Notes under the pieces: generated by a model
Seen by the model: the letters and a program-made list of their open reading frames with translations, nothing else
What the model was told of the DNA's origin: nothing
The model's database searches: none
In this document: piece by piece, positions 14,252 through 30,799 of the stretch
Position numbering within the stretch: the first letter of the stretch is position 1
Layout of the letters: every line of letters begins with the position of its first letter
DNA from: a virus
Reading direction: 5' to 3' (one strand)
Virus record (IMG/VR): IMGVR_UViG_3300025585_000061
Span: 1-47,171 of that record
DNA length: 47,171 nucleotides
Made by a program: the position numbers and the translations under genes

Positions 14252-14528
14252 CGATCCCTACAAGGAGGTCACCGACACCATCCACCGGCTGATGCTGCGG
14301 AAATCTGGGTACTACGGCAACCCTGATGCCGGTCCCTTGTGCAATGCACTGGGCGTGGAGCAGGACGGCATTGAGCCCTGGCGTTACCAGCTGGCCAGGA
14401 TCGGGGAGAAATGCCGCCGCCTGAGAGGCGAAGCCCAGTATGACGAGCAATTACTTAGGGAGACTTTGATCGACATCGCAGGCCATGCGGTGGTAGCGGT
14501 TGCGTGTTTGAATGCCAAGAATCATTAG
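14211..14528 (+). CDS. DUF1599/MazG-like small protein, possible nucleotide metabolism
   Basis: The helical pattern 'L..R.ksgyYGNPda' followed by 'YQLARIGEKCRRL' and 'LRETLIDIAGHAVVAVACL' resembles phage DUF1599/DUF6378-type proteins, distantly like all-alpha NTP pyrophosphohydrolases. No complete MazG EExxE metal site is visible, so catalysis is uncertain. The start at 14211 (MED) is chosen because the upstream codons are low complexity and lie inside the previous gene. About 105 residues is normal for this family. Confidence 0.55.
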   Translation: MEDSLRQDGGWRGDDPYKEVTDTIHRLMLRKSGYYGNPDAGPLCNALGVEQDGIEPWRYQLARIGEKCRRLRGEAQYDEQLLRETLIDIAGHAVVAVACLNAKNH

Positions 14529-14538
14529 GGAGATCACC

Positions 14539-14904
14539 GTGAATCTGAAGGTTTTGAAGTGGTTGCTCGCCCACAAGGACGCCCTGCTGCAGATCGTGGA
14601 GATCGGCAAGGGCTACTCCAAGAGCCTGCCGTACCTGAAGCAGTGGGAGATCGTGGACCAGATCGCCCGCATCGTCATCCCGATCCTGGAAACGGAGGCC
14701 GTCACGCCGAAGGTGCTGGCGCATGACGATATCTTCACCGAAGTTTGGGCTGACGATGCGTTGAACGACGAGCCGCGTGAGGTGCAAATCCTCCAAGCCG
14801 GTGCCGAAGTACAGGCCATGGCCGTGGATTGGAAGACGCTGGTGGAGACGATCATCCCCTTGGTGGTGGCGATCCTGAAGGCGCTGCTTCGCGACGAGCC
14901 GTGA
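14539..14904 (+). CDS. Hypothetical protein with hydrophobic C-terminus
   Basis: GGGAG 6 bases upstream supports the GTG at 14539; an ATG at 14512 in the same frame has no ribosome site. The product is helical with an acidic middle and a C-terminal hydrophobic segment (ETIIPLVVAILKALL) that could insert in or lie on the membrane. It couples to the subtilisin gene by GTGA. Its place directly before a protease and small membrane proteins suggests it belongs to that cluster, perhaps as a membrane partner. Confidence 0.65.
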   Translation: MNLKVLKWLLAHKDALLQIVEIGKGYSKSLPYLKQWEIVDQIARIVIPILETEAVTPKVLAHDDIFTEVWADDALNDEPREVQILQAGAEVQAMAVDWKTLVETIIPLVVAILKALLRDEP

Positions 14905-17069
14905 GCTTCGTTCACCTCCCGCCCTACCGGGTGACCGCGCATCCACTCGCCGCCAAGAGCGACGGGGTTGACTGGGGCGTTTCGTCCTACGGGATCCCGG
15001 CCTTGTGGAAGCAAAGCCAGGGCGAAGGGGTGACGGTAGCGGTGGTGGATTCCGGGGTGGCCCCGCACTACGCCTTGGATGGCGTGGTGGTGGACTACCG
15101 CAACTTCACCACCGACGCAGACATGTACGACACGCTCGGGCATGGGTGCATTGCACCAGATGACGAGGTGTACACATCGAACTGCGGAGTGCAGCCGATA
15201 AGCACGCTGTTTGAACGAGTCGATGGCGTCGTGCATCAGATGGAAGATGGCAGCACCATCAAAGATGTATCCCGCCTTGGAATCTACACGCTTGGTTACG
15301 ACACCGAAACGCAGGCGACAGTTCGCAGGAAGGTACTTGCTGTTCATCGACTGCCGTACGACGGCGAAATCGTGAGCGTCAAAACTCGCGAAGGCGTCCA
15401 GCGGTTTACGCCGTGGCACCCCGTGTATGCGCAGACATCGCAGCGCGGAAGCGACAGGAGCGTGCGTAAGATTCGCGCTGACGAGATAGCAGTTGGCCAG
15501 AGGCTTGTGACATCGCGAGAAAACACAGGCGTATATGACGGGATCCATGAGATACCGCTAAAGGCTGAGTGGACATGCAGGTACTGCGGACATGTCGCCT
15601 CTGGCGGGCTACGGCCACAATGCAAGAAGTGCAACAAAAGCAACTGGCATTCAGGGCCGGAGCATCGCAGCCTCCCGCTGGACGAGAACCTTGCGTTCTT
15701 CCTTGGGCTCGTCGCATCCGATGGCCATGTGATGGCCACGCAAAAGGCAATCAATTTCTTTAACAACAACCGTCAGCTGGCGGATGTGTTTTCGGATCTG
15801 TGCCAGCAATTGTTTGGCAAGCGACCGGCGGAGTTGAAGCCGCGCCACTCCGACTCCACCCTCATTAGCCAGCGGCTTCGCAGTGCGGACGCATGGCATG
15901 TCTGCGCCATGCGCATGGGGATGCCGTCCAGCAAATCAATCACCTTGGAGTTCCCAGAGCTTGTCGCGAAAAGCAAACCGAGCGTGATCCTGTCGTTCAT
16001 CGCCGGGTTCGTTGAGGGCGATGGCAGCGTGTGCAAGAAGACGGGCCGTGTTCGCATAGCCACTGGAAGCGAGCGCTTCGGAAAAAGGCTTGTGGCAGTG
16101 TGTCGGTTTCTTGGGATCAGCGCTTCGATGCATTCAGTGAAGCCGTCTCCGACTGGTTTTAAGACAGAGAGAAATTCGTGGATTGTGCGAATCGCCCATA
16201 ACGAGGAGCTTGCGGCGCTGATGCGAGTGAAGCGTGTCCAGCTGGGGCGCAACGTACGCAGCAGGCGGGCCGTTAGCGTTGTGTCGGTTACTCGCGAAAC
16301 GTACAGCGGAGAGATGTACGACCTGACCGTTGAAGGCTCGCACAACTATGCCGCGAATGGGGTGATCGTAAGCAACACGCACTGTGCCGGGGTGATCGGC
16401 GCGAAGACCGGGAACGCCAAGGGCATTGCACCCAAGTGCAAGATCCACTCGTTGAAAGTCTTGGGCCACTCCGGGATGGGATCGAACGATGCCGTGGCGG
16501 AGGCCGTCCGGTACGCCACAGAGATCAAATGCGACATCATCTCCATGTCGCTCGGCTCCTCCCGGCCGGATGACCATCTGCATTCTGCCATCAAAGAAGC
16601 CCATGAGCAGGGCATCGTCATCGTCTGCGCCGCTGGCAACGACGGCGGATCGGTGAACTTCCCGGCTGCATTCCGCGAAACGATTGGCGTCGGTGCGGTG
16701 GACAAGTCCGGTCAGGTGTGTGAGTTCTCCAGCCGTGGCAAGGAGATCGTAGTCGCTGCGCCGGGGGCCGACATCACCAGCACATGGCTGGCCAACGGCT
16801 ACGCCACGATCAGCGGCACCAGCATGGCGGCGCCGTTCGTTGCTGGCGTCCTGGCCCTGTACATCTCAGCCGCCAAGAAGGGCGGCGAGAAGGTCACGCA
16901 CAAGACCGTGGTGGATGTCCTGTCGAAGACTTGCAAGGACGCTGGGGCTGTGGGGCATGACGATGTCTACGGCTGGGGACTGTTGGACCCCCATCGCCTG
17001 CTGACCTACGACATCAAAGCCACCGCAAACGGCATCACCATCTGGATTCCCGGAGCAAAGATCCTGTGA
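14901..17069 (+). CDS. Subtilisin-family (S8) serine protease interrupted by an intein
   Basis: The 722-residue precursor holds a 312-residue S8 protease and a 410-residue intein. Catalytic Asp is D50 (VAVVDSGVAPHY). Catalytic His is H81, in G-H-G then, after the intein, T-H-C-A-G. The oxyanion Asn is N580 (CAAGNDGG) and the nucleophile is S641 (GTSMAAP). The intein splits HGTH between Gly and Thr, so the active site forms correctly only after splicing. No signal peptide is seen. The GTG start overlaps the upstream stop. It heads a run of small membrane or secreted proteins and a papain-like protease. It may act in lysis, in host-protein degradation or in virion maturation. Confidence 0.93.
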   Translation: MSFVHLPPYRVTAHPLAAKSDGVDWGVSSYGIPALWKQSQGEGVTVAVVDSGVAPHYALDGVVVDYRNFTTDADMYDTLGHGCIAPDDEVYTSNCGVQPISTLFERVDGVVHQMEDGSTIKDVSRLGIYTLGYDTETQATVRRKVLAVHRLPYDGEIVSVKTREGVQRFTPWHPVYAQTSQRGSDRSVRKIRADEIAVGQRLVTSRENTGVYDGIHEIPLKAEWTCRYCGHVASGGLRPQCKKCNKSNWHSGPEHRSLPLDENLAFFLGLVASDGHVMATQKAINFFNNNRQLADVFSDLCQQLFGKRPAELKPRHSDSTLISQRLRSADAWHVCAMRMGMPSSKSITLEFPELVAKSKPSVILSFIAGFVEGDGSVCKKTGRVRIATGSERFGKRLVAVCRFLGISASMHSVKPSPTGFKTERNSWIVRIAHNEELAALMRVKRVQLGRNVRSRRAVSVVSVTRETYSGEMYDLTVEGSHNYAANGVIVSNTHCAGVIGAKTGNAKGIAPKCKIHSLKVLGHSGMGSNDAVAEAVRYATEIKCDIISMSLGSSRPDDHLHSAIKEAHEQGIVIVCAAGNDGGSVNFPAAFRETIGVGAVDKSGQVCEFSSRGKEIVVAAPGADITSTWLANGYATISGTSMAAPFVAGVLALYISAAKKGGEKVTHKTVVDVLSKTCKDAGAVGHDDVYGWGLLDPHRLLTYDIKATANGITIWIPGAKIL
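15147..16376 (+). mobile_element. LAGLIDADG intein inside the S8 protease
   Basis: The intein spans precursor residues 83-492. It starts with Cys (CIAPDDEV, the N-terminal splice nucleophile) and has TPWH (residues 170-173) as the block B T-x-x-H. It ends in ...VIVSN followed by a +1 Thr. The usual penultimate His is Ser here. Two LAGLIDADG helices are visible near residues 266-275 (FFLGLVASDG) and 366-377 (FIAGFVEGDGSV), so it is a full homing-endonuclease intein. A CxxC...CxxC zinc ribbon (from residue 226) lies between the splicing block and the endonuclease. It inserts next to the most conserved codons of the host gene, as inteins usually do. Confidence 0.92.
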
Positions 17070-17275: not shown

Positions 17276-17670
17276 AACACCTCCCCCTCGTCATAGCCTG
17301 CTTGTTCCTGGCGTTCACCCTTGTCCCACCGCAGCCACGGGCTACCGGCCCCGTCGCAGAAGCCCTATCGTCGGCCTCCTCCACCGACCGGGCGACCGTG
17401 TCAGCCATCTACCGCGCGCTGGCAGACGTTATGCGACGAGATGCTGGTCGGCGGATTACCACCACTGGAGTCTGGCGCTCCGTCTATCGTGACGCGCTGG
17501 CCCTGGCTGCGGGTGGGACAGACCTCGTCGGCAAGTATCCGGGATTGGATAAGGCCGTGGAGGAAGTGCTGGGTAAGTACTACTCGCTGGATGACTTGGC
17601 GATAGACGATGAGCTAGCCCAGAAGATCGCGACCGCATGCATGGAAGTGGCAAGGCAAAGTGGCGGATGA
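17272..17670 (+). CDS. Probable secreted protein (132 aa)
   Basis: The ATG at 17272 is chosen over the in-frame upstream codon at 17236 because it gives an ATGA overlap and a clear signal-peptide pattern: MKH, a hydrophobic core (LPLVIACLFLAFTLV), then Pro-Pro. The mature part is helical with no recognised domain. The lack of a lipobox Cys makes a lipoprotein unlikely. Its place between two proteases and small membrane proteins suggests an envelope-acting role. An inner-membrane tether is the alternative. Confidence 0.7.
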   Translation: MKHLPLVIACLFLAFTLVPPQPRATGPVAEALSSASSTDRATVSAIYRALADVMRRDAGRRITTTGVWRSVYRDALALAAGGTDLVGKYPGLDKAVEEVLGKYYSLDDLAIDDELAQKIATACMEVARQSGG

Positions 17671-18613
17671 TCTAGACACACCATACTCGCTGTTCCGAGC
17701 GTACGAAGATGGGCTGGGTGGCTACGTGCCAGATGCACGGGCGACCAATGAGTTCTTGGAAACCCAGAAGTACCAGCACTTCCGCGAGCCCAACATCTAC
17801 GGCTCGGGCCGTGGCAAGCGTGCGTTGCTCTGGCAGTACGCGAAGAAGCTGGATCCCACCTGCTTCACTGAAGCCCAAGAGACGGGCGATTGCGTCAGCC
17901 ATGGAAGCCGCAACGCCAGGGACATAACCAGGGCCGTGGAAATTCTGGTGAAGCGGGAGCCAGAGTCCTGGTTTCAGAAGGGCGCCACCGAACCAACGTA
18001 CGGTGCGCGTGGCCATGGCGGGCAGGGAATGTCACCCGCCAAAGCCTCCCGCTTTGAGCGTGACGTTGGCTTCCTCGCCCGCTCCGACTACGGCGTGGTC
18101 GATCTCTCCAAGTACAACTGGAAGATCGGCCACAGATGGGGCTCGTCTGGCGTGCCGAGCGATGTTCAGGATCTGTGCAAGAAGAACAAGGTCGGCGTGA
18201 TCAGTCTCGTCCGCTCGCAAGAAGAGCTGATGGACGCGATGTTCAATGGGTACGCCGCGCACTCCGGGCAGTTCGCGTCATGGAGCCCGAGCCCCAACGA
18301 CAAGCACGTTCACCCGCGCACATCCAAGGGGTGGGCGCATGACATGGCCATCGTAGGCTACGACGATACGCAGGAGTTCTGGCCGTTCCGCGTGTGGTTC
18401 ATTCAAAACAGCTGGGGCCCGTGGAACCAGAAGCCTAAGGGCTGGCCTGCCGAGTACCCGGAGTGGGTGCCCGGCATGATCGTGACCACGGCCGAAGACT
18501 TCGATGTCTGCGTGAAGTCGAACGACTGTTGGATCTACGGGTCCATCGACGGCTACCCGGCCCAGCGTCTCCCAGACTACGGCACCATAGGAATGCTGCA
18601 CCATGGTGAGTAG
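17660..18613 (+). CDS. Papain-like (C1-type) cysteine protease
   Basis: The product has the order of a papain-fold protease: Q73 and C78 in QETGDCVSHGS (oxyanion Gln and nucleophile), H227 in GWAHDMAIVGYDD, and N250 in IQNSWGPWN. The spacing and flanking residues fit family C1. A GTG at 17660 starts it and overlaps the upstream gene by 11 bases. No pro-peptide of typical length or signal peptide is obvious, though the first 60 residues could act as a short pro-region. Two unrelated proteases within 4 kb of a phage genome are unusual. They may digest a protein-rich host envelope layer or host proteins. Confidence 0.85.
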   Translation: MADDLDTPYSLFRAYEDGLGGYVPDARATNEFLETQKYQHFREPNIYGSGRGKRALLWQYAKKLDPTCFTEAQETGDCVSHGSRNARDITRAVEILVKREPESWFQKGATEPTYGARGHGGQGMSPAKASRFERDVGFLARSDYGVVDLSKYNWKIGHRWGSSGVPSDVQDLCKKNKVGVISLVRSQEELMDAMFNGYAAHSGQFASWSPSPNDKHVHPRTSKGWAHDMAIVGYDDTQEFWPFRVWFIQNSWGPWNQKPKGWPAEYPEWVPGMIVTTAEDFDVCVKSNDCWIYGSIDGYPAQRLPDYGTIGMLHHGE

Positions 18614-19546: not shown

Positions 19547-20120
19547 ATACCACGGCCTAGTCACCATCCTGTCCCGCTACTTCCTGCAGAATCGACCAGC
19601 GTGGCAGCGGTCTGTCCTGATCGGTGACCTGGAGGGGGAGGGATACCTCGCCCTGTGCAAGGCTGCTCGCACGTACGACAAGAAGAAGTTGCCGTACCCG
19701 AAAGCCTACTTCGCACGGGCGATCCTCAACGCCATGCTGAAGAGCATCAAACGAGTGACCCGCACGCCGGGCGAGAACAAGATCAGCCTGCAGGAAGCGG
19801 CCGAACTGGCGCCGGACTTCGATCACTTGGACCACCTGCGGCTGGCGATTGAAAGCCTGCCGATAGAGGATCAGCAGATCGCCATGGACAGGTTCATGTG
19901 CGGGGCAACATTGCGAACTCTTTCAGCCGTCCACGATGTACCGTTGCGCGTTGCTTCCCTGAGCGCAGCTCGGCTGCAAAGACAGTTGGCGCAGTCTTTG
20001 GATATCCGGCTGACGCCGCGTGAGCCAGCAGCCAGACATCCGAAGGAGAGTAGTAGCCGCGAGCGTCCTTCCGCATCAGGACGGGCTTCTTCACGCCATC
20101 GCGGGCCAAAGCGAGGGTGA
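19497..20120 (+). CDS. Sigma-70-like factor (phage-encoded)
   Basis: The product looks like a small two-domain sigma factor: region 2 at about residues 40-88 (DLEGEGYLALCKAARTYD ... FARAILNAMLKSIKR) and region 4 at about residues 112-165 (LPIEDQQIAMDRFMCGATLRTLS...). It would direct RNA polymerase to particular promoters, possibly late genes. The last 45 residues are basic and low complexity, and their DNA is read on the opposite strand as the serine recombinase, so the domain probably ends near residue 165. The ATG at 19497 or 19500 is equally possible. Confidence 0.65.
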   Translation: MMKRSKLSKYRQGLVVEYHGLVTILSRYFLQNRPAWQRSVLIGDLEGEGYLALCKAARTYDKKKLPYPKAYFARAILNAMLKSIKRVTRTPGENKISLQEAAELAPDFDHLDHLRLAIESLPIEDQQIAMDRFMCGATLRTLSAVHDVPLRVASLSAARLQRQLAQSLDIRLTPREPAARHPKESSSRERPSASGRASSRHRGPKRG

Positions 20121-20685
20121 TCTTCTCCCACCCCCAGCCCTCCGCTCTCCACTGCATGATCTTGTCCGCGATCTTGCGCTCCTTCTCGCAGACCACCCAC
20201 TCCTTGTTGCCACGCATCCAGCCGAACGGCCGGGCACAAGCGTAGGGCAGGCCGTTGCGCTTCAGATACTGGACCGCATCGGATACCCGGCGACCGATCC
20301 GCTTGCGTTCGTACTGTGCCCAGCTGGCGAACTGGGTGAACATCATCTCCCCCTCGTCCGTGCTGGTATCGATTGGGAAGTCCAGGATGGCAAGCCGGAC
20401 ACCGTACTGCTTCCAGGTGGCCAGGGTATTGGCGGCATCCGCCGTCGAACGCCAGCCACGGTCCAGTTTGGTAACCACCACCAGATCACCAGTACGCAGC
20501 GTATCCCACATGATCCTGCCTTGCGGGCGGTCCTTCATGGGGATCTTGCCGGACACATCCTCGTCGCAGAAGACTTGGTCGATGGTCAGGCCATGCTTCA
20601 CGGCGTATGCCTGAAGCTCCTGCCGCTGGTTATCCAGGCTGATCGACTGATCGTCCGTCGATACCCGGCAGTACCCGTAGATCAT
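19894..20685 (-). CDS. Serine recombinase (resolvase/invertase family)
   Basis: The N-terminal catalytic domain has Ser9 in IYGYCRVSTDDQ, then DEDVSGK and LDRGWRST, and the YERKRIGRR helix that starts the C-terminal DNA-binding part. At 263 residues it is longer than Tn3-type resolvases and shorter than large serine integrases. The start at 20685 is chosen because GGAG precedes it and the upstream peptide's stop lies 2 bases before, giving coupling. It is the last gene of the leftward cluster and overlaps the sigma-like gene by 227 bases on the other strand. It could invert, excise or resolve DNA; no target is proven. Confidence 0.88.
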   Translation of the reverse strand: MIYGYCRVSTDDQSISLDNQRQELQAYAVKHGLTIDQVFCDEDVSGKIPMKDRPQGRIMWDTLRTGDLVVVTKLDRGWRSTADAANTLATWKQYGVRLAILDFPIDTSTDEGEMMFTQFASWAQYERKRIGRRVSDAVQYLKRNGLPYACARPFGWMRGNKEWVVCEKERKIADKIMQWRAEGWGWEKITLALARDGVKKPVLMRKDARGYYSPSDVWLLAHAASAGYPKTAPTVFAAELRSGKQRATVHRGRLKEFAMLPRT

Positions 20686-20687
20686 GG

Positions 20688-20771
20688 CTACTCCAATGAG
20701 GCGAAGAACATGATGCACGCCATGATGACGGCACCCACCAAGAAGTCAGCGGTCTGAGACATAGCAAACAT
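20688..20771 (-). CDS. Small membrane peptide (27 aa) upstream of recombinase
   Basis: A 27-codon frame on the - strand begins after a strong AGGAGGT ribosome site. The product is hydrophobic (FLVGAVIMACIMFFAS). Its stop lies 2 bases before the serine recombinase start, so it may work as a leader that couples recombinase translation, as a membrane peptide, or both. Coding is supported by the ribosome site and spacing only. Confidence 0.55.
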   Translation of the reverse strand: MFAMSQTADFLVGAVIMACIMFFASLE

Positions 20772-30118: not shown

Positions 30119-30799
30119 ATGGCGTGTTGCAAAGTCTGCTGTGGCTGCAAGGAGTGCGACGAGGGCGAAGAGGGCAAATGCTGCTGCGGCTTGGACTGCT
30201 GCCAGCCCGGCACCTACTGCTGCAACGGGGCGTGCGTGGAAACGTGTGGCGAGGGCGGTGTCGGCCCCTGTAAGTGTGGCTCCTCTTGCTGCGCGGAAGG
30301 CGAGTACTGCTGCGACGGCGTCTGTCAGGCGGAGCCGTGTGGCTGCGAGACGGACGAAGATTGCCCGGCAGACAATTCGTGCTGTGGAGGGCAGTGCTGC
30401 CATTTGGATCGCTGCTGCGGTTGCGTGGATTCCGCGTGTGACCGCCAAGGCAAGGCAATGTATCTGCTCGGCTCCGCCGTGTCTGATCTTTGCACGGCAG
30501 AGGACTTCTCTCGCTGCGATTGCAATCTCTTCAGGGAGTCGGTCCGGCCATGCGTAGATCCAGAGGATGTGCCAGCAACGCAGGCCGGGGTGGACGGAAC
30601 CCTGGAACAGGTCGGCCCGGTCTGCGAGTGCGGCTTTGAGCCCGTTGTTGTGGGCTGGCCACTGGACTCGTTCCCGATTTCGGCGGCAGACTATGAGGTG
30701 GAGTGCTGGGCGATACCGGCGGGGTCTTCTCCGGGTGATCCAGATTATCCGCCTGTTGTAGATCCAGACTGGTATCCCGCAATTTGTGACCCGCCATGA
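30119..30799 (+). CDS. Extremely Cys-rich protein with granulin-like CC repeats
   Basis: I count 41 Cys in 226 residues, 33 of them in the first 107. They come in repeating CC pairs (CCQPGTYCCNGAC, then CCAEGEYCCDGVC, then SCCGGQCC), like granulin or metallothionein-type repeats. The C-terminal half is Pro-, Asp- and Val-rich and less Cys-rich. The start is uncertain because no ribosome site precedes 30119. It is the first gene of the head module and couples by ATGA to the next. It may be a disulfide-rich virion surface protein or a metal-binding protein. Function is unknown. Confidence 0.75.
   Translation: MACCKVCCGCKECDEGEEGKCCCGLDCCQPGTYCCNGACVETCGEGGVGPCKCGSSCCAEGEYCCDGVCQAEPCGCETDEDCPADNSCCGGQCCHLDRCCGCVDSACDRQGKAMYLLGSAVSDLCTAEDFSRCDCNLFRESVRPCVDPEDVPATQAGVDGTLEQVGPVCECGFEPVVVGWPLDSFPISAADYEVECWAIPAGSSPGDPDYPPVVDPDWYPAICDPP

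Follow-up and report, generated by a model that had tools for sequence, protein, structure and literature searches.

The window, by which we mean the whole stretch of DNA analysed, is a 47,171-bp virus record from IMG/VR in which terminase, portal and head genes are present. It carries a gene for an S8 subtilase that is interrupted by an intein and followed by a second protease gene, and the features concerned are arranged as given below.

14901..17069, plus strand: precursor gene, 722 aa, an S8 subtilase interrupted by an intein, with a GTG start
14901..15146, plus strand: N-extein (residues 1-82), with the LPPY segment, Asp50 and His81, terminating in GHG
15147..16376, plus strand: intein of 410 aa (residues 83-492), matching PF14890, TIGR01445 and TIGR01443
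15576..15632, plus strand: Cys4 knuckle (C144-x2-C147 ... C159-x2-C162) in the intein
15672..16181, plus strand: LAGLIDADG homing-endonuclease domain (PF14528, PF05204)
16377..17066, plus strand: C-extein (residues 493-722), with THCAG, the oxyanion Asn580 and Ser641 in GTSMAAP (PF00082)
17660..18613, plus strand: next protease gene, a papain-like cysteine peptidase by motif, uninterrupted in the window

The interrupted subtilase gene

The S8 gene opens with a GTG that overlaps the stop codon of the ORF before it (GTGA), and the same start together with the N-terminus VS[FY]VHLPPY is retained in the homologues L002-L005. A Pfam search of the precursor places Peptidase_S8 (PF00082) at residues 493-693 with 153.8 bits (cut-off 21.8), and the Asp/His/Ser triad and the oxyanion Asn are all present in S8 context. 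An earlier note on this DNA had listed D50, H81, N580 and S641 as present in the precursor; they are, and 13 aligned S8 sequences show no variation at these four residues or in the LPPY segment near the N-terminus. The closest solved relatives of the exteins are the intracellular subtilisins of Bacillus (PDB 7y6m, 7xr8, 2wv7/2x8j), with E-values down to 2e-39, and their N-terminal LIPY segment matches the LPPY segment of the phage protein (RLIPYEV in the intracellular serine protease 7y6m, HLPPYRV here), but they are cellular enzymes without an intein. Intracellular subtilisins (ISPs) lack a signal peptide and have an inhibitory N-terminal extension of the LIPY type. The phage subtilase may be ISP-like, with no obvious signal peptide as judged by eye.

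The same note had located a 410-residue LAGLIDADG intein at the catalytic-His motif of this protease, and its borders (15147-16376) prove exact to the base and are backed by profiles above cut-off. The Cys1 codon TGC occupies 15147-15149, the Asn410 codon AAC ends at 16376, and the 1230 bp between these limits read in phase 0 as 410 codons with zero stops. The junctions are ...DTLGHG / CIAPDDEVYTSNCG...HNYAANGVIVSN / THCAGVIG..., a reading (GHG / THCAG) that confirms that the host motif GHGTH is restored only on removal of the intein; when the segment is taken out, GHGTHCAG is rebuilt and a 312-aa subtilase results. Elsewhere in the window, a serine recombinase/resolvase-like ORF (19894-20718, minus strand; GYCRVSTDDQSISLDNQR) runs opposite to most genes, and a 226-aa ORF (30119-30799, plus strand; CCGCKECDEGEEGKCCCGLDCC) is very rich in cysteine.

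Anatomy and class of the intein

A profile search for splicing blocks in residues 83-492, which the earlier note had proposed as a check, returned all three of the splicing models. Intein_splicing (PF14890) scores 46.9 bits against a cut-off of 35.8, and the N-terminal and C-terminal splicing regions of NCBIfam, TIGR01445 (residues 83-176) and TIGR01443 (residues 473-493), are both above cut-off, with their outer borders falling at residues 83 and 493. LAGLIDADG_3 (PF14528; 44.5 bits, cut-off 22.5) and Hom_end (PF05204; 37.9 bits, cut-off 21.1) are recognized as well, and the two LAGLIDADG motifs, LGLVASDG at intein residue 186 and IAGFVEGDG at 285, have their acidic residues D192 and D292 intact. 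The best sequence matches to the endonuclease part are TliVMA (7qss/7qsu), PI-PfuI (1dq3), PI-SceI and PI-PkoII, with E-values from 2e-10 to 7e-7, all of which, unlike the S8 intein, reside in non-protease host proteins. AlphaFold models of the precursor and the intein are of low confidence (mean pLDDT 40.6 and 49.4), and their fold matches to PI-SceI, PI-PfuI, TliVMA and I-DmoI add weakly to this picture.

The splicing residues are intact, namely Cys1, T88-P-W-H91 in block B, D392 and H399 in block F, V408-S409-N410 and the +1 Thr, and the C-terminal motifs read YDLTV..HNYAANGVIVSN (block F/G). Cys1, Asn410 followed by Thr83, the motifs of blocks B, F and G, the profiles and the existence of empty alleles together characterize a class 1 intein. 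Class 3 inteins have no nucleophile at position 1 and carry a WCT triplet with Cys at F4; this class is ruled out here because Cys1 is present and F4 is occupied by Asp392. A bacterial intein-like domain is likewise ruled out, by the conserved site and the exact empty alleles. The penultimate residue is Ser409 and not the usual His, giving SN instead of HN at the C-terminus; a penultimate His is usual in class 1 inteins, although it is not universal and hence no defining bar. GC3 is 0.67 in the intein and 0.82 in the exteins, a gap that would be compatible with a separate origin.

Empty alleles and a second S8 insertion

Intein-free S8 genes were found in four IMG/VR contigs, each encoding exactly 312 aa at 87-91% identity with a contiguous GHGTHCAG, and an alignment of S8 homologues across the insertion point, as the earlier note had suggested, thus contains in-frame alleles that lack the segment. 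Two wider scans yielded 130 uninterrupted S8 loci spanning the site (some contigs being retrieved more than once), which represent 70 distinct sequences; of these, 56 have at least 50% identity. The peptide patterns used lie off the insertion site and so introduced no bias against alleles with an insert. The insertion site ranks first in protein conservation among all 4-residue windows (mean 1.000), and over 12 bp of DNA it ranks 12th of 308, a degree of conservation that would be expected of a homing target. Eight phage or plasmid S8 matches that apparently started within the intein (H13, H19, H20, H26, H31, H33, H34 and H60) were rejected as uninterrupted subtilases with a chance extension.

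Intein-only peptide patterns gave no second copy of the exact S8 intein in viral contigs, and tblastn with the intein matched endonuclease parts only in phages and nothing in plasmids. The DNA pattern for HNTHVAG occurs at 5 loci in viral contigs, none of them S8, and at 80 or more loci in 85,000 species genomes, with no S8 among the matches listed. The pattern V-x-N-T-H-V-A-G, by which intein C-termini are separated from ordinary GHGTHVAG, has 32 viral loci at the DNA level and is real in one of them, contig L251; in about 400 genomes from each of two bacterial phyla (that of a Streptomyces and that of a Pseudomonas) it revealed no S8 intein, and a two-sequence intein profile had zero matches in 398 genomes of the phylum of the Pseudomonas genome. 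L251 has a length of 84,772 bp and a GC content of 0.43, much lower than that of the window, and holds the following.

L251:3685-5907, plus strand: S8 ORF of 740 aa from a distant phage, bearing a homologous intein
L251:3976-5223: intein of 416 residues, between ...NFHG and THVAG, at the same S8 site

The two S8 inteins share 36% identity over 406 residues (47.5% in the first 125), and their exteins 35.6% over 270 residues. Since divergence is alike in intein and extein (36% in both), the comparison would not by itself indicate horizontal transfer, and the two known members of this intein are too distant for dS, recent homing being documented for the intein of the neighbouring gene only. The L251 intein retains Cys1, TPWH, HNY, VSN, the +1 Thr, both LAGLIDADG Asp residues and the penultimate Ser, and the retention of the splicing residues at 36% identity argues for function of the S8 inteins. 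C144, C147 and C159 of the Cys4 knuckle are also retained in this alignment, and the knuckle may form a zinc ribbon within the endonuclease part. Small ORFs with a C-terminal hydrophobic helix lie 5' of S8 in both phages (window 14512-14904, plus strand, IIPLVVAILKALLRDEP; L251:3260-3673, plus strand, ILLPIAIDLLRAWLRKRQGR), which suggests that gene order has been retained between these distant relatives. In L251 a 208-aa ORF (L251:2580-3206, plus strand), located two genes before the interrupted S8 gene, resembles a free-standing Hint/intein-like domain.

These data bear on two rival explanations. Given that the exact intein is known from a single IMG/VR contig without a second copy, metagenome assembly might have fused a foreign intein to the S8 gene. 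We regard such a chimaera as extremely improbable, as the junctions are base-exact, in frame and at an intein-type site, an independent contig carries a homologue of the intein at exactly this position, and in codon bias and GC3 the intein falls inside the range spanned by the other genes of the phage. Alternatively, the missing penultimate His, observed here in a single environmental genome, could mean that splicing is slow or dead and the protease gene effectively knocked out by a decaying intein. In passages of a study of mycobacteriophage inteins, the penultimate His is replaced by Gly, Lys or Ser; one intein with a penultimate Gly splices completely and becomes slower once His is introduced, and an upstream His of block F can assume the role of the penultimate one (PMC5050341). 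The penultimate His is also dispensable in some other splicing inteins (PMC7664689). With Ser retained in a homologue differing at 64% of positions in which all other splicing residues are intact, and with an open extein frame that keeps all catalytic residues, decay is a poor candidate, though less remote than an assembly artefact.

The class 1 inteins of mycobacteriophages (in TerL, RDF gp51, portal and other proteins) resemble the present one in residing in phage genes, in having splicing blocks and endonuclease domains, in their insertion at functional centres and in the frequent replacement of the penultimate His; their hosts are mostly nucleic-acid or phage packaging proteins, and no protease is among those named in the passages drawn on here (PMC5050341). 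The ClpP inteins of the Chlamydomonas eugametos chloroplast and of bacteria are, like the S8 intein, inside a serine protease, and for that of C. eugametos an atypical penultimate residue is discussed (PMC5784728, PMC5050341). ClpP differs from S8 in fold and clan, and it is not a phage gene.

The neighbouring protease, homing and activation

The peptidase encoded next to S8 has invariant Q73, C78, H227 and N250-SWG; against Pfam Peptidase_C1 the best of 11 members reaches E 0.018, short of the cut-off, and there is no match to a PDB profile. Its homologues in four contigs (L015/L242, L144/L233, L131/L230 and L231) have an intein of 401-402 residues directly before C78.

L120:778-2946, minus strand: intein-bearing papain-like peptidase, with the like in L144, L131 and L231; homologues of window 17660-18613

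These C1 inteins end in HN, and the catalytic Cys is the +1 residue. Uninterrupted homologues at 50% identity or more number 53 distinct sequences, and in all three C1-intein contigs where the S8 gene is visible it is empty, the window showing the reverse arrangement. The C1 inteins are 57-96% identical among themselves and share only about 24% identity with the S8 intein, so that colonisation of the two sites was either independent or very ancient. In a comparison of L015 with L144, the inteins have 96.6% DNA identity (dS 0.087, dN 0.018), whereas the exteins have 79.7% nucleotide identity (dS 0.96, dN 0.11); with dS so far below that of the extein, transfer of the intein is recent compared with the divergence of the gene that hosts it. 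The intein is under purifying selection, with dN/dS of about 0.2. In the tree of the C1 C-extein the filled state requires 4 changes, at least 3 of them forced by well-supported branches. The C1 insertion site ranks 56th of 313 in DNA conservation and is thus less extreme than the S8 site. A scan for this intein family led back to these four contigs and to one further IMG/VR contig, in which a DNA polymerase III alpha-like protein carries a distant intein (L281:2159-5428, plus strand; GRG/CFLPD...VHN/SAAGCL). In the L004 phage the large terminase subunit (L122:1126-3189, minus strand) also contains an intein, of 342 aa (ACQ/CFDD...IIAGN/CLEYLCAY) and with a penultimate Gly.

We consider it probable, at about 0.88, that the S8 insertion is a selfish homing intein of class 1 type with a LAGLIDADG endonuclease, situated between Gly82 and Thr83 of a phage S8 subtilase whose activity depends on splicing. 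Splicing would begin with an N-S acyl shift at Cys1 and proceed by transesterification onto the +1 Thr and by cyclisation of Asn410, in which His399 of block F probably replaces the absent penultimate His, and a final O-N shift would yield the 312-aa protease, in which GHGTH is whole again. With His81 two residues ahead of the splice junction, the S8 precursor should be inactive and protease activity should await splicing, a dependence that by position follows almost necessarily. The neighbouring protease, where it bears an intein, probably works only after excision in the same way, and from the established structures of subtilisin and papain an active precursor is very unlikely at both sites. 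The endonuclease would cleave alleles without the intein at the GHGTH codons, which are strongly conserved, and repair of the break would copy the intein into the empty allele, so that the element would persist by homing; homing would likewise have brought another intein family, only distantly related to this one, to the catalytic Cys of the neighbouring protease in related phages. Conserved active sites are the usual targets of homing (PMC2814812), and activity that comes only with splicing is the general picture for inteins at active sites (PMC2814812, PMC5784728).

The earlier note had proposed that splicing decides when the protease becomes active, as a post-translational switch. In its regulatory form, conditional splicing would delay the subtilisin until late infection as an extra zymogen lock beyond the LPPY segment. 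The insertion does split the catalytic motif, inteins occupy catalytic residues of both neighbouring proteases, the unusual penultimate Ser is common to both S8 inteins, splicing rate in a phage intein is altered by changes of the penultimate residue (in passages of PMC5050341), and conditional splicing is documented for other inteins (PMC5790916). A broader version, to which we give equally little credence, holds that two unrelated protease types in one phage gene cluster are intein-inactivated, with non-canonical splice residues tuned to time activation as an intein-made zymogen. The switch is not established by these points. Almost all relatives are without the insert, among them the 56 distinct S8 homologues with at least 50% identity, and the protease therefore does not need it; the intein of the C1 gene has been gained or lost several times, the endonuclease motifs of the S8 intein with their Asp pair are intact, and recent transfer is observed in the neighbouring gene. 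Homing alone suffices for all of these observations, conserved active sites being the usual targets (PMC2814812). Rarity and patchiness, both LAGLIDADG Asp residues and recent homing next door are typical of a selfish homing element. Selfish spread accounts for the data better than a beneficial on/off switch, which is possible and which we hold to be improbable, if less so than decay.

The earlier note named no documented intein at this site of a phage subtilisin, and our search of open-access full text, with subscription journals mostly outside its scope and novelty accordingly unproven, likewise found no report of an intein in a subtilisin, subtilase or S8 protein. The class of element is known; novelty appears to lie in the host family, in the insertion site and in the pairing with another protease. 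Phage S8 subtilases and the neighbouring papain-like peptidase thereby join the intein hosts, with an exact insertion site that adjoins a catalytic residue. In the C1-like peptidase the +1 nucleophile is the enzyme's own catalytic Cys, so that the chemistry of splicing and the activity of the protease hinge on a single residue; because this one Cys serves both, dependence on splicing should be easy to assay. The empty alleles, the two distant S8 alleles and the four alleles of the neighbouring intein constitute a natural test set for asking whether active-site inteins are hard-to-lose parasites only or have been turned into activation switches.
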